Source: Acidisphaera sp.
GTDB lineage: Bacteria > Pseudomonadota > Alphaproteobacteria > Acetobacterales > Acetobacteraceae
DNA length: 48,947 bases
Direction: 5' to 3'
Assembly: GCA_019240395.1 (NCBI GenBank)
Contig: JAFAYM010000058.1
Coordinates: forward strand, 1-48,947
In this document: piece after piece, positions 28,554 to 48,037 of the stretch
Numbering within the stretch: position 1 is the stretch's first letter
Layout of the letters: each line of letters begins with the position of its first letter
Translations under genes and position numbers: made by a program
The notes under the pieces: model-generated
Databases searched by the model: none
Told to the model about the DNA's origin: nothing
What the model saw: only the letters and a program-made list of their open reading frames with translations

Positions 28554-28642
28554 CGCCGCGCGTCCCAACTCCGGCCGCAAACACCCGCGGAAAGCGACGA
28601 CACCCCTTGCGCCGCCGTGACCGCTTGAACTTAGGTGAGGGA

Positions 28643-29242: not shown

Positions 29243-29309
29243 CGGTTGCAGGCTCCCCCAGTTCTAAACGACCAATGAACGGGCTTGCCCCGGGGTTGCG
29301 TAGCTAACC

Positions 29310-29810: not shown

Positions 29811-30068
29811 CAGCTGGCGCGGATCCTTGGGGGAGATCGGGGGCTTCCCTGTTCATGCCGTCTCGCGCAGTCTAGAGCATGTAGCTGAGGCCTGCTCGGG
29901 CCCGAGAGAGGAGGTTTTGCATGCCCGCCCTGCCTTGCGCGAGAATGCGTCTTGCCTGAACAATGCCGACCAGCGGGCACCGGCTCGATGATCACCGCGC
30001 GATGAACAGTTCGTATGCGTCGGGTAATGCACCGGCTGGACCGAGGCCATAACTAGGCGGGTGATCTC
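29811..30068. promoter_or_regulatory. Divergent control region between ecfG paralogue 1 and phyR
   Basis: The 258-bp gap must hold promoters for both arms of the GSR locus. It contains a perfect 12-bp palindrome CTCGGGCCCGAG (29895-29906) followed by GAGAGGAGG. A TGAAC-N16-GTA at 30003-30026 resembles the EcfG consensus but differs at two key positions, so I do not call it a promoter. No small gene is visible. Confidence 0.45.
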
Positions 30069-30800
30069 TTGAGCCGCGAAGATATTTTGCGCGCCCTGCC
30101 CTATGCCCGTCGCTACGCTCGGGCGCTGACCGGCAGTCAGCCGGGCGGCGACGCCCTGGTAGCCGAGGGACTGCGCGAGATGCTGGGGGACGTGCCGGCG
30201 GTTGATCCCCGCCGGGCGCTCTATGAACGGGTGACCCGAGGCTTCGACGCACTGGCAACCTCCCGGCCGGTGCCGAGCGGCAGCCTAAGCCACAAGCAGC
30301 GGCAGATGCTGCTGCTGACGGCACTCGAGGAGGTTCCGGTGGCGGATGCCGGGCCGATCGTTGGCCTTGAGAGGGAGGCGGCGGCGGCTCAGCTCGGCGA
30401 CGCGCGCGAGCGGCTGCGCACGGCCGCGGCCACCGACGTGCTCATCATTGAGGACGAGCTGATCATCGCCATGGACATCGAGGAGTTGGTCCGGGGTTGC
30501 GGTCATCGCGTTGTCGGAGTTGCGGGCAACGAGGAGGATGCCGTGGCAATCGCGAGACGGACCCGGCCCGGGCTGATCCTGGCAGACATCAATCTCGGCC
30601 GGGGTGGCGACGGCAGCAGTGCGGTCGCGCGCATCATGCTGCACCACCGGGCCCCGGTGATCTTCGTCACCGCTTATCCCGAAAGGCTGCTGACCGGCGA
30701 GGCGTTGGAGCCGGCCTTCGTCATCACAAAGCCGTTCGAGCCGATGGCGCTCGCCATCGCCACCTACCAAGCGGTCACCGGCGGGGTCCGCCTGGACTGA
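30069..30800 (+). CDS. phyR: General stress response regulator PhyR (sigma-mimic plus receiver)
   Basis: The 243-residue protein has an N-terminal EcfG-like domain (about 1-118) and a receiver domain (about 122-238). Receiver residues are E128-D129, the phosphoacceptor Asp173 in LILADINLG, Thr201 and Lys221. The block VIFVTAYPERLLTGE followed by FVITKPF is a PhyR hallmark. Phosphorylation, probably by the neighbouring kinase, exposes the sigma-like domain so that it binds NepR and frees EcfG. The start is TTG at 30069, which suggests modest translation; no better start is visible. The gene points toward the trehalose/glucan genes, about 105 bp upstream of glgE with no clear terminator between them. 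Confidence 0.93.
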   Translation: MSREDILRALPYARRYARALTGSQPGGDALVAEGLREMLGDVPAVDPRRALYERVTRGFDALATSRPVPSGSLSHKQRQMLLLTALEEVPVADAGPIVGLEREAAAAQLGDARERLRTAAATDVLIIEDELIIAMDIEELVRGCGHRVVGVAGNEEDAVAIARRTRPGLILADINLGRGGDGSSAVARIMLHHRAPVIFVTAYPERLLTGEALEPAFVITKPFEPMALAIATYQAVTGGVRLD

Positions 30801-30905
30801 GTTCCCCAATGGGCTGACTTCCCGGTAGCAGACCGGCGGGCCGGGAACCCGGCGGTGCGGGAGGCGCTCAACCAGGGCGGCTCAGGCCACAGATGCGAGA
30901 CGGAG

Positions 30906-33900
30906 ATGATGGCCACGACGGGAGGACAGGTGGACAGGGGCGTCGCGCGCCATGGACCGGAGGCGATGCACTCAGCGGCCGTCGGCCCCGCCCAGCGATC
31001 ACCACGCGTCTACTACCTACATCCACTTCTGGCCGGCCCGATCGGCGGCTGGCCGGCGCATCTCGACCGCGTTGCCCGGCTCGGCTTCGACCATTTGCTA
31101 ATTGCACCGCCCTTCCTTTGCGGCGGGGCCGCGCTGCAGAACCAGCGCGACGCCGTATCGTGGCGCGAGGCGCCCAGCACGATCTTCCTGGCGGCCGACC
31201 ACGACCGGCTGCATCCCGCACTGGCCGGGCCGAGTGAGGCGCTCGCCGCCTTGAGCCAGGTCGCTGACGAAGCCCGGGGATGCGGCCTCGTGCCCCTGCT
31301 CGACGTAGTGCTCGACCGGGTGGCCGCCGGCTCGAAGCTGGCGCGGCAGAACCCCGAGCTATTTGGCGCGCCAGATGCCTCCGACCGGCTCGACCCACGT
31401 CGTTACACCGGCGACGATGAGGCGGCGCAGGCGGGGCTGGCCGACCCCGATCAGACCGAGGCTCTGGCGGAATGGTGGAGCCGCCGGCTCAACGCCTGGT
31501 CGGAAGCCGGGATCGGCGGTTTCCGCTTTGTCCCGCTGCAGGGCATTCCGCCACGCCTGGTGCGCACGCTCATCGGAAAGGTGCGGCGCAATGCCACGGA
31601 GTGCCTGTTCCTCGGGTGGATGCCGGGTGTCCCCCAGAGCGATTTTTCCGGCTTTGCGGGTTGCGGGCTCGACTACGTCTTCTCCTCGCTTCCATGGTGG
31701 GATTTTTCCAGCGACTGGCTGTGGCAGGAGGCGTCGCGGCTGCGCGCGGTCGCGCCGATCCTCGCCTGCCCCGAGGCGCCGTTCGGTCGGCGCATCGCCG
31801 CCACTTGCCATGACCGCGCACGGCTGCGTGCCGCCTACCGGCGCGGACTGGGCTTCGCCGCCGGAATCGAATCCGGATGGATGATGCCGATGGGCTGCGA
31901 GTACGCTGCGACACGGCCGATGGACCCGAGGCGCGACACGGCGGAGGATTTCGCCACCCTTGTGGCCGAAGCGCCCTTCGACCTCGCCGAGACCATCAGC
32001 GCCGTCAATCGGGCGCGCGCTGAGGAGCCGGCACTCGCCGGATCGGCCGAACCGCGGCTGCTGACCGGGGCCGGTGGTCCGATCATTGCCGTGCTGCGCC
32101 CGGACGGCGCCGACGCGCGCGCCGCCGAGCGCGCCGTCCTGGTCCTAGCCAATGCCGGGCTGGAGCAGCGGGTGGAGGTGCCGACCGCCTCGTTGCTGGC
32201 CAATGCGGGGGGCAGCTTCGTGCCAATCGCCCCCGGGGCGGAGCTGGCGGTCGAGCCAGGCGACGTGCTGACGGTGCGCGCCACCGCAGCGCCGCCGATC
32301 CTGCGGCCACGCGACGATCTCGCCGCCTCGGCTCGCGAGGCGGCGAAAGCGCCGCGCTTGGCGATCGAGGCGGTGTCGCCGAGCGTCGATGGCGGTCAAT
32401 TCCCAGCCCGGCGCTGCGTGGGCGAGCTGGTCGAGGTTTCCACCGACGTGATCTGCGAAGGTCACGATCAGCTCGGCGTCGTACTGATGTGGCGCACCGC
32501 CGAGGCGGATTGCGAAGCCTCGGACGGCAAAGCGGGGGAGTGGCATGAAGTACGCATGCTGCCGCTCGGCAATGATCGCTGGACGGCAAGCTTTCCGCTG
32601 CTGCGGCTCGGAATGCATGAATTCACCATTGAGGCATGGCGCGACGCGTTCGCCAGCTTTCGCGATGAACTCTCAAAGAAACATGCCGCCGGAGTGAACA
32701 TCAAGCTGGAGCTGGTCGAGGGGCGCGAGCTGATCGCCGACATCGCCCGGCATGCCGCGCCGAAGCTCAAGCCAGGGTTGGACACGCTGCTGGAGGCGCT
32801 TTCGGAGGAAAGCGAAGAGGCGCGCCGCACGACGCTGCTGGCCCCCGAAACCGCCGCTCTGCTGGCCGAGGCCGACCCGCGCCCCTTTGCTCTGCGCGTC
32901 GAACCTCCTTTCCCGCTGGAAGCCGAGCGCACCGCGGCGCGCTTTGCCAGTTGGTATGAGATTTTTCCGCGCTCGATGAGCGACGATCCGCATCGCCACG
33001 GCACTTTCGAGGATGTGATCCGCCATCTGCCACGGATCCGCGACATGGGCTTCGACGTGCTCTACTTCCCCCCGATCCATCCGATCGGGCGGACCAACCG
33101 AAAGGGCCGCAACAATTCGCTGACCCCCGCGCCGGACGACCCGGGCAGCCCGTACGCGATCGGCAACGCAGAAGGCGGGCACGACGCGCTCCATCCCGAG
33201 CTCGGCACGATCGAGGATTTTCGCCGGCTACGCCAGACGGCGTCGCGACACGGGTTGGAGCTGGCGCTCGACTTCGCAATCCAGTGCTCGCCGGACCATC
33301 CCTGGCTTCGCCAGCACAAGGAATGGTTCGACTGGCGACCCGACGGCTCGCTTCGCTACGCCGAGAATCCGCCGAAGAAGTACGAGGACATCGTAAACGT
33401 CGATTTCTATGCCCCGGGCGCCATTCCGGGCTTGTGGCAGGCACTCTGTGAAGTCGTGCTGTTCTGGGCCGGCGAGGGCGTGCGCATTTTCCGGGTCGAC
33501 AACCCGCACACCAAGCCACTGCCGTTCTGGCACTGGATGATCGCCGAGGTTAAGGCGCGGTACCCCGACACGATCTTCTTCGCCGAGGCGTTTACGAAGC
33601 CGAAGATGATGTACCGGCTGGCGAAAGTAGGCTTCTCCGAGAGTTACACCTATTTCACTTGGCGCAACACCAAGCAAGAGCTGACCGAGTATCTCGAGGA
33701 GCTGGCCAACACGGCGCCACGCGAGTTCTTCCGACCGAATTTCTTCGTCAACACGCCGGACATCAACCCGGTGTTCCTGCAGACCTCCGGTCGTCCGGGA
33801 TTTCTCATCCGCGCGGCGTTGGCGACGACACTTTCGGGACTGTGGGGCCTCTACAACGGCTTCGAGCTGTGCGAAGGTCGTCCGCTGCCTGGCCGGGAGG

Positions 33901-34313
33901 AATACATCGACTCCGAGAAATATCAGCTCCGCGCCTGGGACTGGGATCGTCCCGGCAATATCGTCGCGGAAATAACTTCACTGAACTGGATACGGCGTAC
34001 CAACCCGGCATTGCAGACGCATCTCGGGGTCACCTTTCTGCCTTCAGGCAATGACCACATCCTGTTCTACGAGAAGTCGACGCCCGACCGGGGCAACGTC
34101 GTTCTCGTTGCCGTCGGCCTCGACCCGCGCGCGATCCAGGAGACGGAGATCGAGCTGCCGCTCTGGCGCTGGCGCCTGCCCGATGACGGAGCGCTGCAAG
34201 CCGACGACCTGGTCGGCGGAACGCGGTTCGTCTGGCACGGCAAGCGCCAGCGCCTGCGCCTCGATCCCTTCGTTTCGCCCTACGCGATCTGGCGGGTCCG
34301 CCCCGCCGCATGA
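30906..34313 (+). CDS. glgE: Alpha-1,4-glucan:maltose-1-phosphate maltosyltransferase GlgE with degenerate GH13-like N-terminal domain
   Basis: GlgE adds maltosyl units from maltose-1-phosphate to a growing alpha-glucan. The C-terminal half (from about residue 485 of 1135) has the GlgE domain order: an N-domain (DUF3416-like, about 485-612) and a GH13_3 barrel with DFAIQCSPDHPW, nucleophile Asp in FRVDNPHTKP (about 865), acid Glu in FFAEAFTKPKMM (about 894) and NTPDINP. The N-terminal half (about 20-420) resembles a GH13 barrel (RVYYLHPLLAG) but its motifs are eroded: DVVLDR for DVVxNH, GFRFVP for GxRxDA, FLGWMP for the Glu strand. Large two-barrel GlgE proteins are known in proteobacteria. 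The start is uncertain: GTG 30855, ATG 30906 and ATG 30966 are all possible. Confidence 0.92.
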   Translation: MMATTGGQVDRGVARHGPEAMHSAAVGPAQRSPRVYYLHPLLAGPIGGWPAHLDRVARLGFDHLLIAPPFLCGGAALQNQRDAVSWREAPSTIFLAADHDRLHPALAGPSEALAALSQVADEARGCGLVPLLDVVLDRVAAGSKLARQNPELFGAPDASDRLDPRRYTGDDEAAQAGLADPDQTEALAEWWSRRLNAWSEAGIGGFRFVPLQGIPPRLVRTLIGKVRRNATECLFLGWMPGVPQSDFSGFAGCGLDYVFSSLPWWDFSSDWLWQEASRLRAVAPILACPEAPFGRRIAATCHDRARLRAAYRRGLGFAAGIESGWMMPMGCEYAATRPMDPRRDTAEDFATLVAEAPFDLAETISAVNRARAEEPALAGSAEPRLLTGAGGPIIAVLRPDGADARAAERAVLVLANAGLEQRVEVPTASLLANAGGSFVPIAPGAELAVEPGDVLTVRATAAPPILRPRDDLAASAREAAKAPRLAIEAVSPSVDGGQFPARRCVGELVEVSTDVICEGHDQLGVVLMWRTAEADCEASDGKAGEWHEVRMLPLGNDRWTASFPLLRLGMHEFTIEAWRDAFASFRDELSKKHAAGVNIKLELVEGRELIADIARHAAPKLKPGLDTLLEALSEESEEARRTTLLAPETAALLAEADPRPFALRVEPPFPLEAERTAARFASWYEIFPRSMSDDPHRHGTFEDVIRHLPRIRDMGFDVLYFPPIHPIGRTNRKGRNNSLTPAPDDPGSPYAIGNAEGGHDALHPELGTIEDFRRLRQTASRHGLELALDFAIQCSPDHPWLRQHKEWFDWRPDGSLRYAENPPKKYEDIVNVDFYAPGAIPGLWQALCEVVLFWAGEGVRIFRVDNPHTKPLPFWHWMIAEVKARYPDTIFFAEAFTKPKMMYRLAKVGFSESYTYFTWRNTKQELTEYLEELANTAPREFFRPNFFVNTPDINPVFLQTSGRPGFLIRAALATTLSGLWGLYNGFELCEGRPLPGREEYIDSEKYQLRAWDWDRPGNIVAEITSLNWIRRTNPALQTHLGVTFLPSGNDHILFYEKSTPDRGNVVLVAVGLDPRAIQETEIELPLWRWRLPDDGALQADDLVGGTRFVWHGKRQRLRLDPFVSPYAIWRVRPAA

Positions 34314-34337
34314 GGCACCCGCTTGACGAGAGCTAAC

Positions 34338-37300
34338 ATGAAAAAAACCGACCGACTGCGGCCGATCGCGGATCCGCTGTGGTACAAGGACGCCGTTATC
34401 TATCAGCTGCATCTGAAATCGTTCTTCGATGCCGACAACGACGGGGTCGGCGACTTCAAGGGGCTGCTGCAAAAACTCGACTACATCGCGGAACTCGGGG
34501 TCAACACCATTTGGCTGCTGCCATTCTATCCCTCGCCGCGGCGCGACGATGGATACGACATCTCCGATTATCGCGGCGTGCATCCCGAATACGGCACGCT
34601 GGCCGATGTGCGGCGCTTCATCGCCGCCGCCCATGAGCGGGGTCTGCGCGTCATTACCGAGCTGGTGGTCAACCACACCTCCGACCAGCATCCCTGGTTT
34701 CAGCGGGCGCGCGAGGCGAAGCCCGGCTCAGCGGCGCGCAACTTCTATGTCTGGTCGGATGACGACCGGAAATATGCCGGCACCAGGATCATCTTCCTGG
34801 ATACCGAAAAATCCAACTGGACCTGGGACGCGGTGGCCGGCGCGTATTTCTGGCACCGCTTCTATTCGCACCAGCCCGACCTGAATTTCGACAATCCGCG
34901 CGTGCTGCAGGAAGTGCTCTCGGTGATGCGCTTCTGGCTCGATCTCGGCGTGGACGGGCTGCGGCTGGACGCGGTGCCCTATCTCGTCGAGCGCGAGGGC
35001 ACCAACAACGAGAACCTGGCGGAAACCCACATCATACTGAAGCGCATCCGCGCCGAGCTGGAGGCGCATGCGCCGGGGCGCATGCTGCTCGCGGAGGCCA
35101 ACCAGTGGCCGGAAGACGCCCAGCAATATTTCGGCGAGGGCGACGAATGCCACATGTGCTTCCACTTCCCGCTGATGCCGCGGATGTATATGGCGATCGC
35201 CCGGGAGGACCGCTTCCCGATCACCGACATCATGCGCCAGACGCCGGAGATCCCGCCGAATTGCCAATGGGCGGTGTTCCTACGCAACCATGACGAGCTG
35301 ACGCTCGAAATGGTCACCGACAGCGAGCGCGACTATCTCTGGAACGCCTATGCGGCCGACCGCCGCGCGCGGCTCAATCTCGGCATTCGCCGGCGCCTCG
35401 CACCGCTGCTGGAACGCGACCGGCGGCGGATCGAGCTGATGAACGGGCTGCTGCTCTCGATGCCCGGCACGCCGGTGATCTATTACGGCGACGAGATCGG
35501 CATGGGCGACAATATCCACCTCGGCGATCGCGACGGCGTGCGCACGCCCATGCAGTGGTCGTCGGATCGTAATGCCGGCTTCTCGCGCGCTGATCCGGCG
35601 AGCCTCGTGCTGCCGCCGATCATGGACCCGCTCTACGGCTTCCAGGCGGTGAATGTGGAGGCGCAGTCCAACGATCCGCACTCCCTGCTCAACTGGACGC
35701 GGCGGATGCTCGCCGTGCGCAAACAGTTCTGCGCTTTCGGTCGCGGCGGCCTGCGATTCCTCTACCCCGGCAACCGCAAGGTGCTGGCGTTTTTGCGCGA
35801 AATGCCGGGCGGCGAAAATCGCGCTGAGGAAACCGTGCTCTGCGTCTCCAACCTGTCGCGCTCAGCGCAGGCGGTGGAGCTCGATCTGTCCGGCTTCGCC
35901 GGGCGGGTGCCGGTTGACATGGTAGGCGGCTCGATCTTTCCGCCGGTCGGCCAGCTCACCTATCTGCTGACCCTGCCGCCTTACGGCTTCTTCTGGTTCC
36001 TGCTGGCCGCGGAGGCGCAGCTGCCATCGTGGCACGCGCCGGCACCGGAGCCGCTGCCGGAATTCGCGACGGTGGTGGTGCGCCACGACATCACCGAGGT
36101 GCTGGGCACCAACGGCCGCGCGCTGCTGGAGCGCGAGGCGCTGCCGGCCTACCTGCCGAAACGCCGCTGGTTCGCCTCCAAAAGCGAACGGCTCGACCGG
36201 GTAAGCATCAGCTACGCTGCGCCGCTGCCGGAAAGCGGCCAGCCGCCGGTGCTGCTCACCGAGATCGAAGCGCAGCTCGGCGACCGCCGGGAGAGCTATG
36301 TGCTGCCGATCGGCATCCTCTGGGAAGACGAGATGAGCAGCACGCTCGGCCAGCAGCTGGCGCTGGCGCGCCTGCGCCAGGGACGGCGCGTCGGCTACCT
36401 CACCGACGCGTTCGCGCTCGACGGGCTGACCCGTGGGCTGCTGGGCGGGCTGCGCCGCCAGACACGCATCAAGCTTGACCCATCTTCCCAAACCAAGGGC
36501 GAGATCGTCTTCCACCCGACGTCCCTGATGGACAGACTGGAGCTGCCGGAGGACGCGGCGATCCGTCGGCTCTCCGCTGAGCAGTCCAACAGCTCGCTGG
36601 TGCTCGGCGATGCGCTGGTGCTGAAGATCGTCCGACGCGTCGCCGCCGGCATCCACCCCGAAGGCGAGATGACGCGCTTCCTCACCGAGCGCGGCTTCGC
36701 CAACACCGCCCCGCTGTTCGGTGAGGTGCTGCGCCTGGCGCCGGACGGCACGCCCCACACACTCGCGCTGGCGCAGGGGTTCGTGCGCAACCAGGGTGAC
36801 GGTTGGGGCTGGACGCTCGACTTCCTGGCCCGCACCGTCGAGGAGCTGGCTGTAACCGGCCATGACGACGAGGAGCGCTCGGATGCCTTCGCCCCCTACG
36901 TCGTGTTCGCGCAGGCGATCGGCCGCCGCCTGGCCGAGCTGCACGCCGTCCTGTCCGAGCCCAGCGACGAGCCGGATTTCGCGCCCGAGGAGGCCGACGC
37001 GGCGACGCTCGAGGGCTGGGCGGAGGCGGCGATCGAGCAGCTCGACATGGCCTTCGCTCTGCTGCGCCAGGAGCGGGAGTGGCCGGACCAGGACACCGCC
37101 GATCTCGCGCACACGCTGCTGAAGCAAGGGCCGGAGCTGAAGCGGCTGGCGCACGATCTTGCCCGCCGGGGACGGCACGCGCTGCGCACCCGCCTGCACG
37201 GCGATTTCCACCTCGGCCAGGTGCTGGTGGTGCAAGCGGACGCCTTCATCATCGACTTCGAGGGCGAGCCGGCGCGACCAATGGTGCAGCGGCGGAGCAA

Positions 37301-37685
37301 AGGCTGCGCGCTGCGCGACGTCGCCGGCCTGCTGCGTTCCTTCGACTATGCGGCTTCTGCTGCCGCCCCTGGCCGGGTCGCCGCCTCGGCGCCGGCGGCG
37401 GAGCGTCGCGCCCTGCTGCTCGAGCGCTTCCGCAAGATTGCCAATGCGGCCTTTCTAGAGGCCTATCGCAACGTGCTCGGCCAGGCCGAGCGGCGCTGGG
37501 TCCCGGAGCTCGCCGAGGCGCCGCTGCTCGACCTGTTCCTGATGGAAAAGGCGGCCTACGAAATCCGCTATGAGGCGGCGAACCGGCCGACCTGGCTGGC
37601 GATTCCGCTGCGCGGCCTGCACGAAATGGCGGCTCGCCTACTGGCCCCGAATGCCGAGTTGCGGGCCGAAAGCGTGCCGGCGTGA
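34338..37685 (+). CDS. treS: Trehalose synthase fused to maltokinase (TreS-Pep2)
   Basis: Bifunctional protein of 1115 residues. The N-terminal GH13_16 domain (about 10-550) interconverts trehalose and maltose: nucleophile Asp211 in [10 protein letters not shown], acid Glu253 in [11 protein letters not shown], and [10 protein letters not shown]. The C-terminal part (about 580-1110) is maltokinase (Pep2/Mak), which phosphorylates maltose with ATP to maltose-1-phosphate: [10 protein letters not shown], then [10 protein letters not shown] (Asp956) and IIDFEGEP (Asp973). Together they feed GlgE, encoded just upstream. I chose ATG 34338; a TTG at 34323 is closer to the glgE stop but less likely. 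The stop overlaps the glgB start by 4 bp. Confidence 0.96.
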
Positions 37686-39865
37686 GCAGCTTGCATCTCG
37701 ACCCCGCCGCCGTCGACGCCCTAGTGCACGGCCGGCACGGCGACCCGTTTGCTCTGCTCGGTCCGCACGACACGCCGAACGGCTGCGCCATCCGCACCTT
37801 TCAACCCGATGCTGAGGGCGTCGAGGTGCTCGACGCAAAGGGCGAGACAGTCCTGGCGAAGCTGGCGCGCGTGCATACCGACGGGCTGTTTGCCGGGGTC
37901 ATGCCGACGCGGGTGCCCTATGTGCTGCGCATCGAGGTCGGGCGCACCGAACGGCAGACCGAGGACCCCTATGCCTTCCCACCGCTGCTCGGTCCGCTCG
38001 ATCTGCATCTCATCGCCGAAGGGCGGCACCGGGAGCTCGGCCGCTGCCTCGGCTCGCATCTCATGACCGTCCAGGGTGTGCGCGGCGTGCGCTTCGCGGT
38101 CTGGGCTCCGAATGCGCAACGCGTCTCGGTAGTGGGCGACTTCAATCGTTGGGACGGGCGCCGTCATCCCATGCGCCGGCGCATCGAGGCTGGAGTATGG
38201 GAGCTGTTCATCCCCCGCGTGCTGCCCGGGACACTCTACAAATACGAAATCATTGCCGCTTGGGGTGAGACCCTGCCGCTGAAGGCCGACCCGGTGGCCT
38301 GGTACGACGAGCGGCCACCGGGCACGGCCTCTGTCGTCGTCGAGGACACGCTGCCGCGCTGGACCGACGAGGCGTGGCGGGCGCAACGCGCCGGTCGGCA
38401 AGCGCCGGACGCACCGATTTCGATTTACGAGGTGCACGCGGCGTCGTGGATGCCCGCGATCACCGGGGGTGAAGAGGGCTGGTCGCATCTCACCGAGCGT
38501 TTGGTTCCCTACGTGCAGCGCATGGGTTTCACCCATGTCGAGCTGCTGCCGATCATGGAGCATCCGTTCGGCGGTTCCTGGGGCTACCAGCCGCTCGGCC
38601 AATTCGCGCCGAGCGCCCGGCTCGGGCCACCGGCCGATTTCGCCCGGCTGGTGGACCGCTTCCACGAGGCAGGCGTGGGCGTGATCCTGGACTGGGTGCC
38701 GGCGCACTTCCCGACCGACGCGCATGGGCTCGCCCGCTTCGACGGCACCGCGCTCTATGAACACGCCGATCCGCGCGAGGGCTTCCACCGCGACTGGAAC
38801 ACTTACATCTTCAATCTCGGGCGTAACGAGGTGCGCGGCTTCCTGATCGCCAGCGCGCTCCACTGGCTTGAGCAGTATCATGTCGACGGGCTGCGCGTGG
38901 ACGCCGTCGCCTCGATGCTCTACCGCGACTACAGCCGTCCCGCCGGGGAGTGGGTGCCGAACCGTTATGGCGGGCGCGAAAATTTGGAGAGCATTTCGTT
39001 TCTCCAGGAGCTGAGCCGCATCGTTAACGAGCGATGCCCGGGGACGGTGCTGATCGCCGAGGAGAGCACGGCTTGGCCCGGCGTAACACGCTCGGCGGAG
39101 GAGGGCGGGCTCGGCTTTCACTACAAATGGAACAAGGGCTGGATGCACGACACCCTGCACTACATGCAGGAGGATCCGGTCAATCGCAGCTGGCATCACG
39201 ACGAAATCACCTTCGGCCTCGTCTATGCCTTCTCCGAGCGTTTTGTGCTGCCGCTGTCGCATGACGAGGTGGTGCATCTGAAGCGCTCGCTGCTCGGTCG
39301 CATGCCCGGTGATGACTGGCAGAAATGCGCCAACCTGCGCGCCTATTATGGATTCATGTGGGGACATCCTGGCAAGAAGCTGCTGTTCATGGGCGGCGAG
39401 TTCGGACAGTGGCACGAGTGGGACCACGATCTCGGCCTGGATTGGCACCTGCTCGATCATCCCATGCACAGCGGCGTGCAACGATTGGTGCGCGATGTCA
39501 ACCAGGCGTATTGCAGCAACCCTGCCCTGCACCGGCGCGATTGCCACCCCGAGGGCTTCCGCTGGGTGGTGCTGAACGATCGCGCGCAGAGCGTCTTCTC
39601 CTTCCTGCGCTTCGGCGCCGAGGTCGACGATCCGGTGCTCGTGATCTGCAACTTCACCCCGGTGCCGCGCCTCGGGTATCGGGTGGGCGTGCCGCGGGCC
39701 GGCCTATGGCAGGAGATCCTGAACAGCGATGCCGCGGTCTATGGCGGCTCGAACATGGGCAATGCCGGCCACTGCACCGCCGAGGCGGTGGAGAGCCACG
39801 GTCAGCCGGCTTCCCTGCTGCTGACCGTACCACCGCTGGCGACGCTCTATCTGCGCCCGGTTTGA
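37682..39865 (+). CDS. glgB: 1,4-alpha-glucan branching enzyme GlgB
   Basis: Forms alpha-1,6 branches in the glucan made by GlgE. The 727-residue product has an N-terminal region with [10 protein letters not shown], a CBM48 domain (about 135-230) and a GH13_9 catalytic barrel: [12 protein letters not shown], nucleophile Asp407 in GLRVDAVAS, acid Glu460 in [12 protein letters not shown], and [10 protein letters not shown]. The length is normal for bacterial GlgB. GTG 37682 overlaps the treS stop (GTGA). The order glgE-treS/pep2-glgB is the complete GlgE pathway of glucan synthesis from trehalose. Confidence 0.97.
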
Positions 39866-39892: not shown

Positions 39893-41686
39893 ATGAGCGG
39901 ACATTCTCCCGCGAGCCTGGCCTATGGCCCCCAGCTGCAAGAGAACGCGCTAGGAGAGGACGGCACGGTGCGGTTCCGCCTCTGGGCGCCGAGCGTCGAC
40001 AGCGTCGCCCTCGAGATCGAAGGCCAGGAGCCGCAATCCATGAAATCTGAGGCAGGCGGCTGGTTCCTCGCAACCGCCCGCGCCAAGGCCGGCTCCCGCT
40101 ACCGCTTCCGGCTGCCTGATGGGCTGGCGGTCCCCGATCCTGCGTCGCGCCGCCAAGCAGGCGATGTGCATGATGCCAGCATTGTCGTCGATCCGAACGC
40201 GTATCGCTGGCAGCACCCGGAGTGGCGCGGGCGACCGTGGCATGAGGCGGTCGTTTACGAGCTGCACCCAGGCGCCTTCGGCGGCTTCGCCGGCATCGAG
40301 CGGCGGCTTCCCGAATTGGCGGCGCTGGGTGTCACCGCGATCGAGCTGATGCCGATCGCCGATTTCCCCGGCAAGCACAACTGGGGTTATGACGGGGTTC
40401 TGCCATATGCGCCGGACGCCGCCTACGGCACACCCGAGGAGCTCAAGTCCCTTGTCGATGCGGCGCACGGCCTCGGGCTGATGATCCTTCTCGACGTCGT
40501 CTACAACCATTTCGGTCCTGACGGAGCCTATCTCCACGTCTACGCGAAAGCGTTCTTCGATGAGGGCAAGCATACGCCCTGGGGAGCGGCGATCGACTTC
40601 AACCGCCCCGACGTAGGCAGCTTCTTCATCGAGAACGCCCTGATGTGGCTCAACGAGTATCGCTTCGACGGACTGCGCTTCGACGCCGTGCACGCCATCT
40701 CGCCGCCGGAATTTCTGGACGCCATGGCAGCGAGTATCCGCTGCAGCGTCGCTCCCGGACGCCATGTTCACCTCGTGCTGGAGCACGAGGGCAACGTCGC
40801 TAGCCATCTCGCCCGGGGAAAATTCGACGCGCAATGGACCGATGACGTGCACCACTGCCTACACGTGCTGCTGACTGGCGAAAGCGAGGGTTACTACGAG
40901 GATTTTCAGGACGCGGCGCGACTGCTGGCCCGCGCGCTGGCCGAGGGTTTTGCCTATCAGGGGGAGGTCTCGCCGCATTCCGGCAAGCCGCGCGGCACGC
41001 GGAGCGTTGATCTGCCGACCACGGCCTTCGTGATCTGCCTGCAGAACCACGACCAGATCGGCAATCGTGCGCTCGGGGAGCGGCTGACCACGCTCGCCGA
41101 TCCGCAGGCGCTGCGCGCGGCGACGTCGCTGCTGCTCCTGGTACCCTTCATTCCGATGCTGTTCATGGGCGAGGAGTTCGCCAGCCGCCGCCCCTTCCTG
41201 TTCTTCACCGATCACAACCCGGAGCTCGCGGAACTGGTGCGCCGCGGCCGCCGTGCCGAGTTCAAAAAGTTCGCCGCGTTCTCCGATCCCGCGAAGCGCG
41301 AGCGCATTCCCGATCCCAATGCGGCGCAGACATTCGCGGCATCGGTTCCGGAATTCGATCAGCCCCGCACTCCGGAGGGCGCGGCGGCGCTGACCCTCTA
41401 CCGCGCTCTGCTGGCGGTGCGCTTTCGGGCTGTCGTTCCACGCATTCCGGGCGCCCGCAGCGCCGGCGCCCAGGCGCTCAGCCGCACCGCCGTGCACGCG
41501 CGCTGGACCATGGGCGACGGCGCACTGCTGACCGTTGCCGCCAATTTTGGCCCCGAGGCTGTCAAAGGCGAGGAATGCCCCGGATCGCTGCTGTTCGAAA
41601 GCGAGGATGGCGCCGGCAAGGCCGCACGACACGGCCGCCTGCCGGCTCGCGCGACCGTCGCCTTCCTGCAGGAGTCGCCGCCATGA
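39893..41686 (+). CDS. treZ: Malto-oligosyltrehalose trehalohydrolase TreZ
   Basis: Releases free trehalose from the end of malto-oligosyltrehalose made by TreY. The 597-residue protein has an N-terminal CBM48-like domain (about 15-95) and a GH13_10 barrel: LLDVVYNHFGPDGAYL, Asp264 in GLRFDAVHAI, acid Glu297 in LVLEHEGN and CLQNHDQIGNR. It is preceded by a 27-bp gap after glgB with AGGAACC upstream of the ATG. The last codons overlap malQ by 4 bp. Confidence 0.95.
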   Translation: MSGHSPASLAYGPQLQENALGEDGTVRFRLWAPSVDSVALEIEGQEPQSMKSEAGGWFLATARAKAGSRYRFRLPDGLAVPDPASRRQAGDVHDASIVVDPNAYRWQHPEWRGRPWHEAVVYELHPGAFGGFAGIERRLPELAALGVTAIELMPIADFPGKHNWGYDGVLPYAPDAAYGTPEELKSLVDAAHGLGLMILLDVVYNHFGPDGAYLHVYAKAFFDEGKHTPWGAAIDFNRPDVGSFFIENALMWLNEYRFDGLRFDAVHAISPPEFLDAMAASIRCSVAPGRHVHLVLEHEGNVASHLARGKFDAQWTDDVHHCLHVLLTGESEGYYEDFQDAARLLARALAEGFAYQGEVSPHSGKPRGTRSVDLPTTAFVICLQNHDQIGNRALGERLTTLADPQALRAATSLLLLVPFIPMLFMGEEFASRRPFLFFTDHNPELAELVRRGRRAEFKKFAAFSDPAKRERIPDPNAAQTFAASVPEFDQPRTPEGAAALTLYRALLAVRFRAVVPRIPGARSAGAQALSRTAVHARWTMGDGALLTVAANFGPEAVKGEECPGSLLFESEDGAGKAARHGRLPARATVAFLQESPP

Positions 41687-43740
41687 GCGGCACGTCGCCG
41701 GGGGATCCCGAGCTGCTGTCGCTGGCCGAAGCCGCCGGTCTGGCGCCGCGCTGGCGCGATGCCTTTGGCAAGACTCACGACGTCGCGCCGGCAACGCTGC
41801 GCTCGGTCCTCGCCGCCCTCGACCTGCCCGCCTCCAGCAATGGCGACGTCCGCGACAGCTTGGCCCGTCTGCGCCGCCTCGGTGCCGAACTGCAGCCGTT
41901 GGTCACCGCTGAAACCAATGTGCCGATCACGCTTACCGCGCCGGCGGGCCGCTTCCGGGTGAAGCTGGAGGATGGCAGCACACGCGAGGGCACGGCCGAG
42001 GCACGCGACGGTCGGGTGACGATCCCGCCAATCGACGCGCCGGGCTACCACTCCCTCGAAATCAGTGATCGAGAAACCGTGCTGGCAGTGGCGCCACCGC
42101 GCTGCTTCAGCGTGCAGGACGCGCTCCCCGGCGGGCGGCCCTGGGGCCTAGCGGTACAGCTCTATGCACTCCGGCGCGATGGCGACGGCGGCCTCGGCGA
42201 TTTCACCGCCTTGCGCGACTTTGTGCAGAGTGCCGGGGCACACGGTGCCGCGGCGGTCGCCATCAGCCCGGTGCACGCGCAATTCTCGGCCGATCCCGAC
42301 CGCTTCAGCCCCTACGCGCCCTCCAGCCGGGTGATGCTTAACGTGCTGCACGCCGATGCCGGAGGGGTGCTCGCCGAGGTGCTCGCCCCCGGTGACGCGG
42401 AACGGCGGCTCGAGGCGCTCGATCAGGTGGACTGGCCGGCCGCCGGGCGGGCACGCCTGGCTCGCTTTCGCGAGGTCTTCGAGCGCTTCAGCGCCGAGGC
42501 ACCTGGAAGGCAGCACCAGGCCTTTGCCGCATTCCGCGCCGAGCAGGGCGAGGTACTGGAAAGCCACGCCCGGTTCGAGGCGCTGCACGCAACGCAATTC
42601 GCCAGCGATGCCGAGCGCTGGAATTGGCGAAGCTGGCCGGAGGCGCTGCGCAACCCACGCAGCCCCGAGGTCGCACGCTTTGCCGCCGAGCGTGCGCACG
42701 AGGTGGCGTTCCACGCTTTTTTGCAATTCCTGGCGGATCGCAGCCTGGCCGCGGCACAAGGCGCGGCGCGCGCCGCCGGTATGCCGATCGGGCTGATTTC
42801 CGATCTTGCAGTCGGCGTCGACGCCGGCGGCTCGCAGAGCTGGAGCGGACAGGACGAGACGCTGATCGGCCTGACCATCGGAGCGCCGCCGGATCTGCTG
42901 AATACTCAGGGCCAGTCCTGGGGCTTGGCGGCATTCTCGCCCCGCGGCTTGGCGCGTAACGGTTTCGGCGCCTTTCTGGCAATGCTGCGCACAGCGCTGC
43001 GCCATGCCGGCGGCGTTCGCATTGACCACGCGATGGGCCTCGGGCGGCTCTGGGTCCTCCCGGAAGGCGCCTCGGCGCTGGAGGGTGCCTATCTAACTTT
43101 CCCACTCGAGGACATGCTGCGGCTGGTCGCACTCGAGAGCTTTCGCCACCGCGCCATCGTGCTCGGGGAAGATCTCGGCACGGTGCCCGAGGGGTTCCAG
43201 GACAGGCTTGGGCGCGCCGGCGTTATGGGCATGCGCGTGCTGTGGTTCGAGCGCGACGAGGACCGGTTCCGGGCGCCGCAACGCTGGTCGCCGCACGCCG
43301 CGGCAATGACCAGCACGCACGATCTACCGACCGTCGCGGGCTGGTGGTCCGGACGCGACCTGGCTTGGCGCAAGCAGCTCCACCTGCTGGGCGACGAACG
43401 CGCGGAGTGGTTCGAGTTCGAGAACCGCGACCGCGACCGCACCCGCCTCTGGGAGGCGTTCCGCGGCAGCGGTGCCGCAACTGGCGAGGTGCCACCACCC
43501 GAGCAGCCGGACGCGGCCGTCGATGCGGCGGTACGGCATGTCGGTCGAGCTGCTTGCGAGCTGGCGCTGGTGCCGATCGAGGATGTGCTTGCCAGCTCGG
43601 AGCAGCCGAACTTGCCCGGGACGCTGCACGAGCATCCAAACTGGCGCCGTCGGCTGCCCGGGCCGGCGGCAAGCCTGCTCGAAACTCCCGGAGCGGCTTC
43701 GCGCTTGGCCTCGCTGGCGGATTCCAGGACCTCTGCATGA
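41683..43740 (+). CDS. malQ: 4-alpha-glucanotransferase (amylomaltase) MalQ
   Basis: Transfers glucan chains between maltodextrins. Placed between TreZ and TreY it can lengthen short maltodextrins so that TreY can use them (inference). The 685-residue product has an N-terminal extension of about 150 residues before the GH77 barrel. Catalytic landmarks are GVRIDHAMGLGRLW (Asp448), VLGEDLGTVPEGF (Glu496) and MTSTHDLPTVAGWW. The ATG start overlaps the treZ stop (ATGA), and the stop overlaps treY in the same way. Confidence 0.95.
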   Translation: MSGTSPGDPELLSLAEAAGLAPRWRDAFGKTHDVAPATLRSVLAALDLPASSNGDVRDSLARLRRLGAELQPLVTAETNVPITLTAPAGRFRVKLEDGSTREGTAEARDGRVTIPPIDAPGYHSLEISDRETVLAVAPPRCFSVQDALPGGRPWGLAVQLYALRRDGDGGLGDFTALRDFVQSAGAHGAAAVAISPVHAQFSADPDRFSPYAPSSRVMLNVLHADAGGVLAEVLAPGDAERRLEALDQVDWPAAGRARLARFREVFERFSAEAPGRQHQAFAAFRAEQGEVLESHARFEALHATQFASDAERWNWRSWPEALRNPRSPEVARFAAERAHEVAFHAFLQFLADRSLAAAQGAARAAGMPIGLISDLAVGVDAGGSQSWSGQDETLIGLTIGAPPDLLNTQGQSWGLAAFSPRGLARNGFGAFLAMLRTALRHAGGVRIDHAMGLGRLWVLPEGASALEGAYLTFPLEDMLRLVALESFRHRAIVLGEDLGTVPEGFQDRLGRAGVMGMRVLWFERDEDRFRAPQRWSPHAAAMTSTHDLPTVAGWWSGRDLAWRKQLHLLGDERAEWFEFENRDRDRTRLWEAFRGSGAATGEVPPPEQPDAAVDAAVRHVGRAACELALVPIEDVLASSEQPNLPGTLHEHPNWRRRLPGPAASLLETPGAASRLASLADSRTSA

Positions 43741-46520
43741 CCGTTCGTGCCACCGCGCGCCTGCAGTTCCATAAAGATTTCACCCTCGATCACGCGCTGC
43801 AGCTGGTGCCCTACCTGAAGGCGCTCGGCATTAGCCATCTGTACGCTTCGCCGCTGCTCACGTCCCGGCCGGGCTCGACGCACGGCTATGACATCGTGGA
43901 TCACCATGCCATCGACCCGGAGCTCGGCGGCGAGGCGGCGCTGCGGCGGCTGGTGGCCGCCCTGCGGCACCAGGATCTCGGTCTGATCCTCGACATCGTG
44001 CCAAACCACATGGGGGTCGGCGGCGCCGACAATGCGTGGTGGCTCGACGTGCTGGAATGGGGGCGGGCCAGCCCGTACGCCGAGTTCTTCGACATCGACT
44101 GGGAGCCGCCCGACCCGGCGCTGCGCAATCGGATGCTGGCGCCCTTCCTGGGGAGCGCCTATGGCGAATGCTTGGCCAATGGCGATCTGGTGCTGCGCTT
44201 CGACCCGGCGGACGGCCGGCTTTTTCTTGATTATTTTGGCAACCGCTTTCCGATCAATCCGCGCGACTACCCGCAGGTGCTGCGCGCCGGCGGCGAGCCG
44301 ATTGCCGAGCTGGCGCACAGCTTCGCCCTGCTGAGCAGCGCAGGCGGGCGCGACGCCCTGCGCCGGCAGGCGGCGGCGGCGCGCGCCGCCTTGCGCGACG
44401 CCGCACCGGAGCAGCGGCAGGTAATCGAGGCGGCGCTCGCCAGTTACAATTCCGACGGACCTGCAGGGCGTGACCGGCTGCACCGGCTGCTGGAGCGGCA
44501 GAGCTATCGGTTGGCTTGGTGGCGGGCGGCCGCAGACGAAATCAACTGGCGCCGCTTCTTCGACGTCAACAGCCTGGCCGGCATGCGCGCCGAGGTGCCG
44601 GAGGTTTTCGATGCCACCCATGAATTCGTCCTGGCGCTCTATGCCGAGGGCCTGATTGACGGCGTGCGCATCGACCATGTCGACGGCCTTGCGGAACCGC
44701 GCGCCTATTGCCGCAAACTGCGCCGCAAGCTGGAGACCGCCGCCGCTTTCCGACCGCGCGAGCTCGGGAGCGACCCCGCGATCATCTGGGTGGAGAAGAT
44801 CCTCGCCCCGCATGAGCGCCTGCCGACGGACTGGCTGACCGACGGCACCACCGGATACGACTACATGGCGGATGTCGCCGGCCTGCTGCACGATCCGGCC
44901 GGCGAGAAGCCGCTCACGGATCTCTGGGTCGGCCTTACCGGGCGTCCTGGCGATTTCGGCGAGGAGGCACGCGCGGCTCGGCGGCAGATCCTGCGCGAAT
45001 CGCTCTCCTCCGAGCTCTGGGCCACTGCGGGCGCGCTGCATCGGGTGGCCCGGCGGGACTTGGCGACGCGCGACTACACGCTCACCGCCATCCGCCGTGC
45101 CCTGGAGGAAGTGCTGGTGCATTTCCCGTCGTACCGCATCTATTCCGGCCTGGCCGGTATCTCCGAGGCGGACCGGCGGATACTGGACTGGGCACTGGCC
45201 GGGGCGCGCCGCACCGTGCGCAGCGCCGACCTGCCGCTGCTCGAGCTGATCGGCAAATGGCTCTCCGGCACCGAGCTGCGCAGCGTGCCGGCGGGCGCGC
45301 GCCGGCAGGAGCGGCTGCGGGCCATGGTGCGCTTTCAGCAGCTCTCTGCTCCCACGGCGGCGAAAGCGGTTGAGGACACGGCGTTCTACCGCTACGGGCG
45401 GCTGCTCTCCCGCAACGAGGTCGGCAGCGAGCCCGGCCATTTCTGCATCTCGCCGGCCGCCTTCCACGCCGCCAATCAGGACCGCCGGCGTCGCTACCCG
45501 CGCGCCCTTCTGGCGACCGCCACGCATGATCACAAGCGCGGTGAGGACACACGCGCCCGCCTGGCCGTCCTCAGCGAGCTGCCTGAGGCCTGGGAGGCCG
45601 CACTCAACCGCTGGATGCGGTTGAACGCCCCGCTTCGGCGTGAAGTCGACGGCTCGCCGGCGCCGGACGCCGCCGACGAGGTGATGCTCTACGAGACGCT
45701 GGTCGGCGCTTGGCCGCTTGATCTCGCGCCCGACGACGCAGCAGGACTGCAGGTGTTCGTCGAACGCGTGGCGAGCTGGCAGGAAAAGGCCTTGCGCGAG
45801 GCCAAGCGCCGTTCCGAATGGGCAGCCCCCAATCTCGATTACGAAGCCGCCTGCCGGGATTTCCTGATCCAAATGCTGGACCCTGGTCGCCCCGCCCGGG
45901 TGGTTGTGGAGATAGCCGAATTCGTGGGCCGTATTGCTCCCGCCGGCGCGCTGAATGGGCTGAGCCAGACCGTGCTGCGCCTCGCCAGTCCTGGGGTCCC
46001 CGATCTGTATCAGGGCACCGAGTTCTGGGATTTCAGCCTGGTCGATCCGGACAATCGCCGCCCGGTGGACTATGCCGCGCGGCAGCAGGCGCTGGACGCG
46101 GACCGAACGCCGGATGCGCTGCTGGCGTCTTGGTCGGACGGGCGCATCAAGCTCGCGATCATCGCCCGCGCCCTGGCGTACAGGGCGCGGGCCCCCGGAC
46201 TGTTCGCCGCCGGCTCCTACCACGCCCTGAAAGTGGAGGGCCGCCTCGCCGAACATGCCTTCGCATTCGCCCGCATTCACGAGGGTCGCGCGGCGGTGAT
46301 CGTGGTGACCCGACTGGCCGGGCGACTGCCCGGCATTGAAGCTCGCCCCCTGGTTGCTTATAATGCCTGGCAGGGAACTTCGATCGCTGTGCCGCGTAGC
46401 CTCGCCGGGCGCCAGTATCATGATGTTTTCGGCGGACCCGGTCGTACAGGAAGTGCCGGTCGCCTGCTGCTTGGCGAGGTCCTGTCGGCTCTTCCCGTGG
46501 CGATGCTGGAGTTGCGATGA
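43737..46520 (+). CDS. treY: Malto-oligosyltrehalose synthase TreY
   Basis: Intramolecular transglucosylase that converts the reducing end of an alpha-1,4-glucan chain into a trehalose unit. The 927-residue protein has ISHLYASPLLTSRPGSTHGY near the N-terminus, DIVPNHMGVGG, nucleophile Asp313 in VRIDHVDGLAEP, acid Glu353 in IWVEKILAPHE and ATHDHKRGEDTRAR, all typical of the GH13_26 TreY family. Much of the N-terminal frame recorded upstream of 43737 belongs to malQ and is not used. Four-bp overlaps join it to malQ and otsA. Confidence 0.96.
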   Translation: MTVRATARLQFHKDFTLDHALQLVPYLKALGISHLYASPLLTSRPGSTHGYDIVDHHAIDPELGGEAALRRLVAALRHQDLGLILDIVPNHMGVGGADNAWWLDVLEWGRASPYAEFFDIDWEPPDPALRNRMLAPFLGSAYGECLANGDLVLRFDPADGRLFLDYFGNRFPINPRDYPQVLRAGGEPIAELAHSFALLSSAGGRDALRRQAAAARAALRDAAPEQRQVIEAALASYNSDGPAGRDRLHRLLERQSYRLAWWRAAADEINWRRFFDVNSLAGMRAEVPEVFDATHEFVLALYAEGLIDGVRIDHVDGLAEPRAYCRKLRRKLETAAAFRPRELGSDPAIIWVEKILAPHERLPTDWLTDGTTGYDYMADVAGLLHDPAGEKPLTDLWVGLTGRPGDFGEEARAARRQILRESLSSELWATAGALHRVARRDLATRDYTLTAIRRALEEVLVHFPSYRIYSGLAGISEADRRILDWALAGARRTVRSADLPLLELIGKWLSGTELRSVPAGARRQERLRAMVRFQQLSAPTAAKAVEDTAFYRYGRLLSRNEVGSEPGHFCISPAAFHAANQDRRRRYPRALLATATHDHKRGEDTRARLAVLSELPEAWEAALNRWMRLNAPLRREVDGSPAPDAADEVMLYETLVGAWPLDLAPDDAAGLQVFVERVASWQEKALREAKRRSEWAAPNLDYEAACRDFLIQMLDPGRPARVVVEIAEFVGRIAPAGALNGLSQTVLRLASPGVPDLYQGTEFWDFSLVDPDNRRPVDYAARQQALDADRTPDALLASWSDGRIKLAIIARALAYRARAPGLFAAGSYHALKVEGRLAEHAFAFARIHEGRAAVIVVTRLAGRLPGIEARPLVAYNAWQGTSIAVPRSLAGRQYHDVFGGPGRTGSAGRLLLGEVLSALPVAMLELR

Positions 46521-48037
46521 ACCGTCTCGTCGTCGTGTCCAATCGGGTTCCCGTGCCGACTGCGGGGGCCCAGGCGGGTGGGCTGGCGGTAGCGCTCGAC
46601 GGCCTGATGGAGCACCGTGGTGGCCTCTGGTTCGGCTGGAGCGGCGACATTGCGGCGGATGCCGCGCAGGCGCCGGTCGCGCTTGAGCGGCACGGCAAGG
46701 TGGACTATGCCACTGTCGACCTGACCCAGGACGAGCACGACCGCTACTACAACAACTTCTCCAACGGCGTGCTCTGGCCCCTCCTGCACACCATGCCGGA
46801 GCTTATGGTCTATGATCGCCGGGACGCTCAATCCTACCGTGAGGTCAATGCCCGCCTGGCCGACTCGTTGGTGCCGCTGCTGCGGCCCACCGACCTGATC
46901 TGGATTCACGACTACCATCTCATGGCATTGCCGGCCATGTTGCGCTCGCACGGTGTGCGCAACCCGATCGGCTTTTTCCTGCACATTCCGTTTGCCACCG
47001 CCGATGTCATCGCCTCAGCGCCCGAGGTTGCCTCCCTGCTCAGGGATTTGCTGGCGGCCGACCTGATCGGCTTTCAGACCGAGAACGACCAGGAGAACTT
47101 CGCTGCCACTGCCCAGACACTGGTCGGCGCCGTGCACCTGCCGAACGGCTGGGTACACACTGCGGGTCGCCGGGCGCGGCTCGGCGTGTTCCCCGTCGAG
47201 ATCGAACCTCGGGGCTTTGCTGCCGCCGCGCTCGAGTCCTGGCGCAGCCCCGCAAGCGAGCGGCTTCGACGGAGCCTGTCCGGGCTGAAGTTGATCCTGG
47301 GGGTCGATCGGCTGGACCCCACGAAGGGCCTGCTGCAGCGCTTGGCAGGGCTGCGCCGCCTGCTCGAGAAGTACCCGGATTGGCGGCGCCGGATCACGCT
47401 GCTGCAGATCGCCGCGATATCGCGCAAGGAAGTCTCCAGCTATCGCGATCTTCGCCTGGCGCTCGACCGCGAAGCCGGCAGCGTCAACAGCGAGTGGGGC
47501 GACCCCGACTGGTCGCCGCTGCGCCTGGTTGCCAAGGCGGGTGCCCGCGAGGTGGTCGCCGGCTACATGCGCGAGGCCAAGGTGGGGCTAGTGACGCCGC
47601 TGCGGGACGGCATGAACCTGGTGGCGAAGGAATATGTCGCCGCGCAGGACCCGCAGGACCCCGGGGTGCTGGTCCTCTCGCAGTTCGCCGGCGCGGCACG
47701 CCAGCTCGAGGCGGCGTTGCTGGTCAACCCGTACGATTCTGACGGTATGGCCGACGCCATCGACCGCGCGCTCCGTATGCCGCTGGCCGAGCGCCAGTCC
47801 CGCTGGCAATCCATGTGGCGCACCATGGAACGCGCCTCGCCGGCGAGCTGGGGCCGTTCTTTTATGGCAGCGCTGCTGCGCGCCGCCGCCGCGGTACCGA
47901 TAAACCAGAGCTATGCGCCGCGCGCCGGATTGGCTGCAGCCGAAATCGCCAGCGCCGGTTCGCCGATTGCGCAACGGCTGAGAAGCGAGATCCAGGTCTC
48001 GGGTGGCAGCGTCGATCCACGTAGCCTGATCCAATAG
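46517..48037 (+). CDS. otsA: Alpha,alpha-trehalose-6-phosphate synthase OtsA
   Basis: GT20 enzyme that joins UDP-glucose and glucose-6-phosphate to trehalose-6-phosphate. The 506-residue protein has the N-terminal VVVSNRVPVP and glycine loop GGLAVALDGLM, then IWIHDYHLMALP, GFFLHIPFA, GVDRLDPTKGL (usually RLDYSKGL) and the C-terminal PLRDGMNLVAKEYVAAQ. The Tyr-to-Pro change beside the substrate loop is unusual but conserved lysine and arginine remain. A partner phosphatase OtsB is not in the window. The ATG overlaps the treY stop. Confidence 0.95.
   Translation: MNRLVVVSNRVPVPTAGAQAGGLAVALDGLMEHRGGLWFGWSGDIAADAAQAPVALERHGKVDYATVDLTQDEHDRYYNNFSNGVLWPLLHTMPELMVYDRRDAQSYREVNARLADSLVPLLRPTDLIWIHDYHLMALPAMLRSHGVRNPIGFFLHIPFATADVIASAPEVASLLRDLLAADLIGFQTENDQENFAATAQTLVGAVHLPNGWVHTAGRRARLGVFPVEIEPRGFAAAALESWRSPASERLRRSLSGLKLILGVDRLDPTKGLLQRLAGLRRLLEKYPDWRRRITLLQIAAISRKEVSSYRDLRLALDREAGSVNSEWGDPDWSPLRLVAKAGAREVVAGYMREAKVGLVTPLRDGMNLVAKEYVAAQDPQDPGVLVLSQFAGAARQLEAALLVNPYDSDGMADAIDRALRMPLAERQSRWQSMWRTMERASPASWGRSFMAALLRAAAAVPINQSYAPRAGLAAAEIASAGSPIAQRLRSEIQVSGGSVDPRSLIQ

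Follow-up and report, generated by a model that had tools for sequence, protein, structure and literature searches.

GlgE of Streptomyces and Mycobacterium (PDB 3zss, 4u2y and 4u33), a member of CAZy subfamily GH13_3, is the same enzyme as the second half of the protein considered here, and the GlgE structures named by the fold search reported below are actinobacterial and have one barrel. Active enzymes with a single barrel are likewise known from Lactobacillus plantarum (alpha-amylase 3dhu) and from Thermotoga (AmyB 4gkl, which bears the title noncanonic maltogenic alpha-amylase). In plants, ISA2 is described in the cited portion of its source as a noncatalytic GH13_11 isoamylase paralog that is kept across its lineage and works with ISA1 (PMC12510319). 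Among bacteria, a GlgA-GlgB fusion with an inactive branching domain is described for Criblamydiaceae and Waddliaceae in the cited portion of PMC11046441. For a GlgE with two barrels, searches of open-access papers gave no description; most subscription papers fall outside that scope, and such a description may exist beyond it.

The window, by which is meant the whole stretch of 48,947 nucleotides analysed from an Acidisphaera sp. contig (Acetobacteraceae), contains a glgE open reading frame that extends from an in-frame GTG (30855-34313, plus strand) and has an ATG at 30906 (Table 1). The whole protein possesses the three Pfam domains that define a GlgE, namely domain N/S, the catalytic barrel and GLGE_C, and the gene forms an operon-like row with treS-mak, glgB, treZ, malQ, treY and an otsA-like gene. 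The presence of treS-mak and glgB in this row agrees, as far as gene content can indicate, with maltosyl transfer from maltose-1-phosphate by the predicted GlgE. Annotation names the whole protein GlgE or maltotransferase domain-containing protein, so that the second domain is invisible in genome tables.

Directly upstream of glgE lies a general-stress-response set (26560-30800) made up of a kinase, two sigma factors and a PhyR-like protein, and this proximity suggests stress control of the GlgE and trehalose genes. A putative EcfG-type promoter upstream of glgE, sought with the EcfG consensus, was dropped: there is one match with one mismatch (30844-30868), and the 6 matches in the window are at chance level (7.19 expected).

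Table 1. Features of the glgE locus, with positions in the window.
Feature	Position	Strand	Basis or remark
HisKA_2/HWE-type histidine kinase	26560-28317	-	
ECF-type sigma factor	28643-29242	-	
ECF-type sigma factor	29310-29810	-	
PhyR-like protein, sigma2 and receiver domains	30069-30800	+	
glgE, two-barrel alpha-1,4-glucan:maltose-1-phosphate maltosyltransferase, 1135 aa	30906..34313	+	ORF; Pfam GlgE_dom_N_S, Alpha-amylase, GLGE_C
N-terminal degenerate GH13 barrel and C-terminal beta-sandwich, residues 31-462	30996..32291	+	AlphaFold, Foldseek, VIA, profile match
RVYYLH motif	31005-31022	+	aligns to YNLFP of intact relatives
Region I, DVVLDR	31302..31319	+	Asp133 kept; Asn-His of DLVVNH replaced by Asp-Arg
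Region II, GFRFVP	31518..31535	+	Arg207 kept; nucleophile Asp replaced by Val209; aligns to GFRCDA
Region III, FLGWMP	31608..31625	+	acid/base Glu replaced by Trp238; aligns to F-x-AET
Region IV, PEAPFG	31770..31787	+	His-Asp of PESHD replaced by Pro292-Phe293; loss missing from the original prediction
GlgE domain N/S, residues 483-675	32352..32930	+	Pfam PF11896, E 9.1e-53
Second barrel and GLGE_C, catalytic GlgE part	32961..34298	+	Pfam Alpha-amylase 686-813, GLGE_C 1045-1131, motifs
treS-mak fusion (maltose alpha-D-glucosyltransferase and maltokinase)	34323..37685	+	NCBIfam TIGR02456, TIGR02457 over cut-off
glgB, branching enzyme	37682..39865	+	NCBIfam
treZ	39893..41686	+	TIGR02402 over cut-off
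malQ	41575..43740	+	TIGR00217 over cut-off, PF02446
treY	43242..46520	+	TIGR02401 over cut-off
otsA-like GT20	46517..48037	+	PF00982 E 5.6e-119; TIGR02400 slightly below its cut-off

The residues of the window GlgE before about position 480 gave zero matches to Pfam, NCBIfam or, as a single sequence, the PDB. Because these single-sequence searches found nothing, Pfam alone would miss the first barrel, and a family alignment was needed. The N-terminal domains of the window and of 59 of the 73 references, 60 in all, were aligned as input to AlphaFold, which yielded a model with a mean pLDDT of 92.9 and a pTM of 0.92, for which the top Foldseek match was M. tuberculosis GlgE (E 2.2e-23). By VIA-align the best match was alpha-amylase 3dhu (Z 34.3, rmsd 2.7 A, 372 aligned), followed by and tied within 1 with GlgE 5vt4 (Z 33.6, rmsd 3.4 A, 394 aligned). 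Used as a profile, the 60-domain alignment matched GlgE chains at E 2e-29 over 404 positions. The combination of fold match and profile match excludes chance resemblance, and by its model the first barrel is a complete GH13 (beta/alpha)8 barrel with a C-terminal sandwich. The original prediction of a GH13-like domain in front of GlgE is thereby borne out, with the AlphaFold, Foldseek and VIA results ruling out an unrelated fold, and only its limits move slightly, the barrel and sandwich spanning residues ~31-462 and domain N/S beginning at 483. The full-length model is of lower confidence (pLDDT 84.3, pTM 0.78), and no Pfam match to CBM48 occurs in residues 1-498.

The three GH13 catalytic carboxylates are replaced in this barrel by V209, W238 and F293, with the Asp of region I (Asp133) and the Arg of region II (Arg207) retained. 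The degenerate motifs originally noted (RVYYLH, DVVLDR, GFRFVP and FLGWMP) were all recovered and fall on YNLFP, DLVVNH, GFRCDA and F-x-AET of intact relatives, and the nucleophile Asp that is Val209 in the window is present in all 25 intact rows of the family. The nucleophile and acid of GlgE's own barrel also align to first-barrel residues 209 and 238, and the loss of motifs is therefore not an alignment slip. From the known GH13 mechanism, the first barrel would not be expected to hydrolyse or transfer; very probably it descends from an active GH13 enzyme and is itself catalytically dead. The second barrel has the full GlgE catalytic set that had been predicted for it, retaining FRVDNP (33489-33506), AEAF (within 33576-33593) and NTPDIN (33750-33767), with nucleophile Asp865, acid Glu894 and Asp952 occupying columns that are invariant in 52 fused rows.

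What is new here is that the first barrel belongs to a proteobacterial family with intact, separate-gene and degenerate members. The original prediction was right about fold, catalytic loss, intact GlgE and proteobacterial occurrence, and missed the intact barrels of Azospirillaceae, Rhodospirillaceae and others and the separate genes beside glgE or treZ-treY. In the first family alignment, 18 of 104 rows (a copy of the window among them) carry the nucleophile Asp, the acid Glu and the transition-state Asp within the motifs DLVVNH, GFRCDA, F-x-AET and PESHD. The later alignment, extended to 110 rows by more searches, contains 25 rows with all three carboxylates, 12 partial rows, of which two (L121 and L122) look intact by eye, their alignment being shifted, and 73 rows without any. 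Every one of the 18 intact rows aligned has Pfam matches to hDGE_amylase (best 1.2e-22) and to Alpha-amylase. The intact-family profile matches 3dhu (1.4e-27) and 4gkl (1.6e-26) ahead of GlgE (2.9e-20), and hhalign relates it to the window's own GlgE barrel with a probability of 99.2 over 361 columns. As to subfamily, then, the full-set profile is closest to GlgE and the intact-set profile to 3dhu and 4gkl, the structural Z scores being tied within 1.

The intact domain is also found as a gene of its own. More specifically, in two Defluviicoccus records (L100, L101) this gene has a ribosome site of its own and ends in TAA, followed by AAGGAGG and then, 27 bases on, by the ATG of a one-barrel glgE; L104 and L134 show the same arrangement of a separate intact gene before a one-barrel glgE. 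In L124 the separate intact gene (L124:9030-15224 locus) stands directly upstream of treZ and treY, with glgE on another contig, and in L135-L138 treY lies upstream of the fused gene. Intact fused relatives, together with separate genes beside glgE and treZ-treY, indicate that the first barrel is by origin an enzyme joined to GlgE, and the gene contexts fit an ancestor that would have been an enzyme of the glucan-trehalose cycle.

The separate gene of L124 is a candidate for assaying the ancestral activity. Three Azospirillaceae loci (L074, L076 and L092) carry the fused intact gene with no recognisable treS, glgB, treZ, malQ or treY within ~8 kb on each side, unlike most loci. L121 and L122 come from small-genome members of the class (G319 and G195) whose genomes gave no GlgE match and which carry, as a separate gene, a distant relative in which the GH13 motifs seem intact; in G319 a glycosyltransferase 2 gene and a phage-type integrase are among its neighbours. 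Replacement of MalQ, GlgX or TreY by the intact barrel is unsupported, since these enzymes occur in 47, 47 and 45, respectively, of 47 genomes compared (12 intact, 1 partial and 34 degenerate), leaving no contrast. A candidate MalQ-TreY fusion was noted just upstream of the two-barrel GlgE in G583 (G583:C123:34642-39042) and also in G568, G684, G560 and G430, the MalQ and TreY matches being consecutive in one open frame of 1642-1960 aa, and a GlgX match in G220 (G220:C600:10545-12635) contains one in-frame TAG.

Two-barrel GlgE occurs in other Proteobacteria, as anticipated, both in sampled genomes and in the family alignment. GlgE domain N/S is present in 32 of 289 sampled genomes of the window's class, and of these 32, 14 have the N-terminal barrel joined to it in one open frame (E up to 1e-30) and 4 have an eroded one (64-103 bits, the weakest, at 64 bits, being doubtful); one has a separate gene, 11 are without the barrel, and two with fragments only were left out. 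Three genomes (G169, G195 and G319) possess a separate relative of the first barrel and no GlgE match. Within the window's order a first-barrel match at E up to 0.001 was obtained in 36 of 150 genomes, and in the plasmid collection 159 records have a match, 139 of them Rhizobium. GlgEs without the first barrel include seven in one group and others elsewhere, and some lineages have a strongly eroded barrel. Thus, the job of the first barrel is dispensable, in that some GlgEs do without it and some lineages keep only an eroded one.

A quick-method tree was built from the GlgE part of 121 rows, of which 75 are degenerate, 26 are intact, 16 lack the domain and 4 have it as a separate gene. On this tree the degenerate rows sit inside a grade of intact ones and the intact or degenerate state needs four changes; L098, a GlgE without the domain, is placed inside the degenerate group, and domain-less GlgEs appear in several places. 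A constraint grouping 73 degenerate against 29 intact or separate rows was not rejected (p-AU 0.58) and was 5.36 log units better. Because a single 73-row clade is not rejected, one main loss with two other partial losses (L091 and L118) is the simplest account. On a careful tree of 92 first barrels, from which the catalytic columns were excluded, the acid Glu (in 29 of 92 rows) and the transition-state Asp (31 of 92) need two changes each, and the nucleophile (36 of 92) and the region I His (33 of 92) seven each. This tree shows that the acid Glu and the transition-state Asp went early, once near the base in the window's lineage, and the nucleophile later and repeatedly. The trees were unrooted by the program, and it is the motif set shared across GH13 that gives the direction from intact to dead.

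Internal duplication of this GlgE as the source of the first barrel is not favoured. A tree with eight GlgE barrels sets the first barrels apart by a branch of ~1 change per column on each side, and GlgE is a poorer fit to the intact-family profile than 3dhu and 4gkl are. A much earlier duplication, in the common ancestor of both barrel families, may have occurred.

The explanation preferred here, to which a probability of about 50% is given, is that the first barrel is an accessory pseudoenzyme derived from an active alpha-glucan enzyme and now predicted to serve GlgE as a docking or scaffold module without catalysis. Comparison of the intact fused, intact separate and degenerate fused forms shows that its ancestor was an active GH13 alpha-glucan enzyme, whose gene lay beside the GlgE and trehalose genes and became fused in frame to the front of GlgE. 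Near the base of the window's lineage its acid Glu and transition-state Asp were lost once, with the nucleophile following on repeated occasions, and the dead barrel would have been kept as an accessory part of GlgE. Its remodelled cleft and the conserved Trp residues nearby may keep an alpha-glucan chain, growing or branched, close to the active site of GlgE, and the barrel may also serve as a scaffold packed on domain N/S. Glucan docking as the retained job, a proposal drawn from sequence patterns, is tentative and falls a little short of an even chance.

Evidence for remodelling of the cleft comes from 29 class-switched positions, at which one majority residue is found in intact rows (>60%) and another in degenerate rows (>50%). 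They include N37Y, F39H, N67A, H70F, Y94F, N137D, H138R, T139V, D209L, E238W, L240P, N260S, Q275E, H292P and D293F. Thirteen of the 29 lie within the 48 residues that follow the eight barrel strands, compared with 35 of 403 other positions (Fisher p 1.4e-6), and the clustering persists without the six catalytic-motif positions (p 9e-4). The class-specific signature thus clusters on the former active-site face. The window displays it as Y37, H39, A67, P69, F70, F94, D137, R138, V139, W238, P240, S260, E275, P292 and F293; at position 209 it has Val, where most degenerate rows have Leu, and it departs from the class consensus in having Phe208, Gly237, Met239, Ile297 and Glu322 instead of Cys, Ala, Thr, Leu and Gly. 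Trp238 is found in 88% (weighted) of degenerate rows, and Trp265 and Trp271 in 97%. Common to both classes are Asp133, Arg207, Glu290, Arg296, Glu332 and Trp264-Trp265-x5-Trp271, and since Trp264, Trp265 and Trp271 are conserved in intact rows too, they may be structural.

The main rival, itself rather unlikely, is that the dead barrel serves purely as a scaffold: it would stabilise the fold or the oligomer of GlgE, or else keep GlgB or TreS-Mak close by, without binding any sugar. Among degenerate rows, conservation of the active-site face does not exceed that of the loops opposite (JSD 0.524 vs 0.531, p 0.53), and the face has lost more of its conservation than they have (ratio 0.68 vs 0.82). 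A scaffold fits these two results better than a binding site does, and face-wide conservation as proof of ligand binding was abandoned because the overall test came out against it. The most conserved positions of the model are the core residues Gly31, Phe32, Gly173, Gly176 and Trp236, again in keeping with scaffolding. However, pure scaffolding needs no class-specific substitutions, and these are concentrated in the residues following the barrel strands, on the former active-site face.

The same class-specific identities at pocket positions could instead mark a regulatory sensor, in which the remodelled pocket binds a small sugar (maltose, trehalose or maltose-1-phosphate) and tunes GlgE, and the location of intact relatives beside glgE and treZ-treY makes a malto-oligosaccharide the probable ancestral ligand. 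This role is nevertheless improbable, as no conserved phosphate-binding set was recognised and the pocket signature is loose, most class-switched positions reaching 53-88% in degenerate rows.

The rate of evolution bears on whether the barrel has any function at all. The ratio of first-barrel dN to GlgE-part dN has a median of 2.60 in 36 degenerate pairs vs 1.42 in 10 intact ones (Mann-Whitney p 1.2e-5), the pairs being non-overlapping and unmatched for taxon, with dS near saturation in many, one pair including the doubtful row L108 and another (L001-L031) being the window itself. Such speed, together with the strongly eroded forms and the GlgEs without a barrel, is what a decaying leftover hitch-hiking on GlgE would show. 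Yet the closest degenerate pairs give the dead barrel a dN/dS of 0.10-0.18, the new residues are conserved, and reading frame and whole fold are kept in the window and in the 73-row group, which makes a functionless leftover very improbable. The first barrel, in short, evolves faster than GlgE yet under purifying selection. That it is still an enzyme with another catalytic set, built from the remaining Asp133, Arg207, Glu290 and Glu332, is scarcely credible, as Asp133 and Arg207 are kept in intact GH13 rows and are neither the GH13 nucleophile nor the acid, and Glu290 and Glu332 are conserved in both classes and so replace nothing.

The accessory pseudoenzyme reading can be carried further to a two-enzyme GlgE machine, a possible though more speculative arrangement. 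In Azospirillum, Skermanella and many Rhodospirillales the first barrel would still be active, as a so far undescribed alpha-glucan enzyme that trims the GlgE-extended chain or carries out 4-alpha-glucan transfer on it. In Acetobacteraceae, rhizobia, Microvirga and Burkholderiales it would be dead, and its cleft would have been turned into a site that holds glucan and determines chain length or processivity. The family offers a natural series in one phylum and with one catalytic partner, from a separate active-looking gene through fused active-looking and fused dead forms to no barrel, and swapping or deleting these natural forms could reveal what a glycogen polymerase gains from a dead GH13 domain. 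From the series one would also expect the front half of GlgE to have alpha-glucan activity in Azospirillum and its relatives, and the series captures the passage from enzyme to helper part, as the same domain is dead here and seemingly working in close relatives.

Comparison with the known systems sets the first barrel apart from each of them. Over its length it matches the barrel and C-terminal domain of Streptomyces and Mycobacterium GlgE (E 2e-29), but no domain N/S precedes it, and the Q and NTPD of GlgE correspond to NH and HD in its intact relatives. The best sequence matches of the intact family, 3dhu and 4gkl, are active enzymes, whereas the window domain is without the three carboxylates. 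In the chlamydial GlgA-GlgB fusion a bacterial glycogen-enzyme fusion likewise carries a dead GH13 domain, but the cited portion of the source describes a defective pathway (PMC11046441); in the present case the GlgE partner seems intact, and selection acts on the dead domain. Nearest among the published parallels found, as far as the cited portion of PMC12510319 describes it, is ISA2, a GH13 enzyme that has lost the nucleophile and other catalytic residues, is conserved in its lineage and is the partner of a catalytic glucan enzyme. The first barrel resembles it in having lost its catalytic residues and being kept across a lineage under selection. ISA2, however, is a separate debranching-enzyme subunit in plants and green algae (PMC12510319), whereas the dead barrel is fused to a bacterial polymerase-like maltosyltransferase and probably belongs to another GH13 branch. 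In profile searches its descent lies nearer GlgE and 3dhu, the isoamylases (GH13_11) standing outside that direct comparison. Thus, the first barrel is a pseudo-GH13 domain and not a catalytic GH13 member, and, on the portion of the ISA2 source cited, it would work like the ISA2 type, probably without being a member of it.
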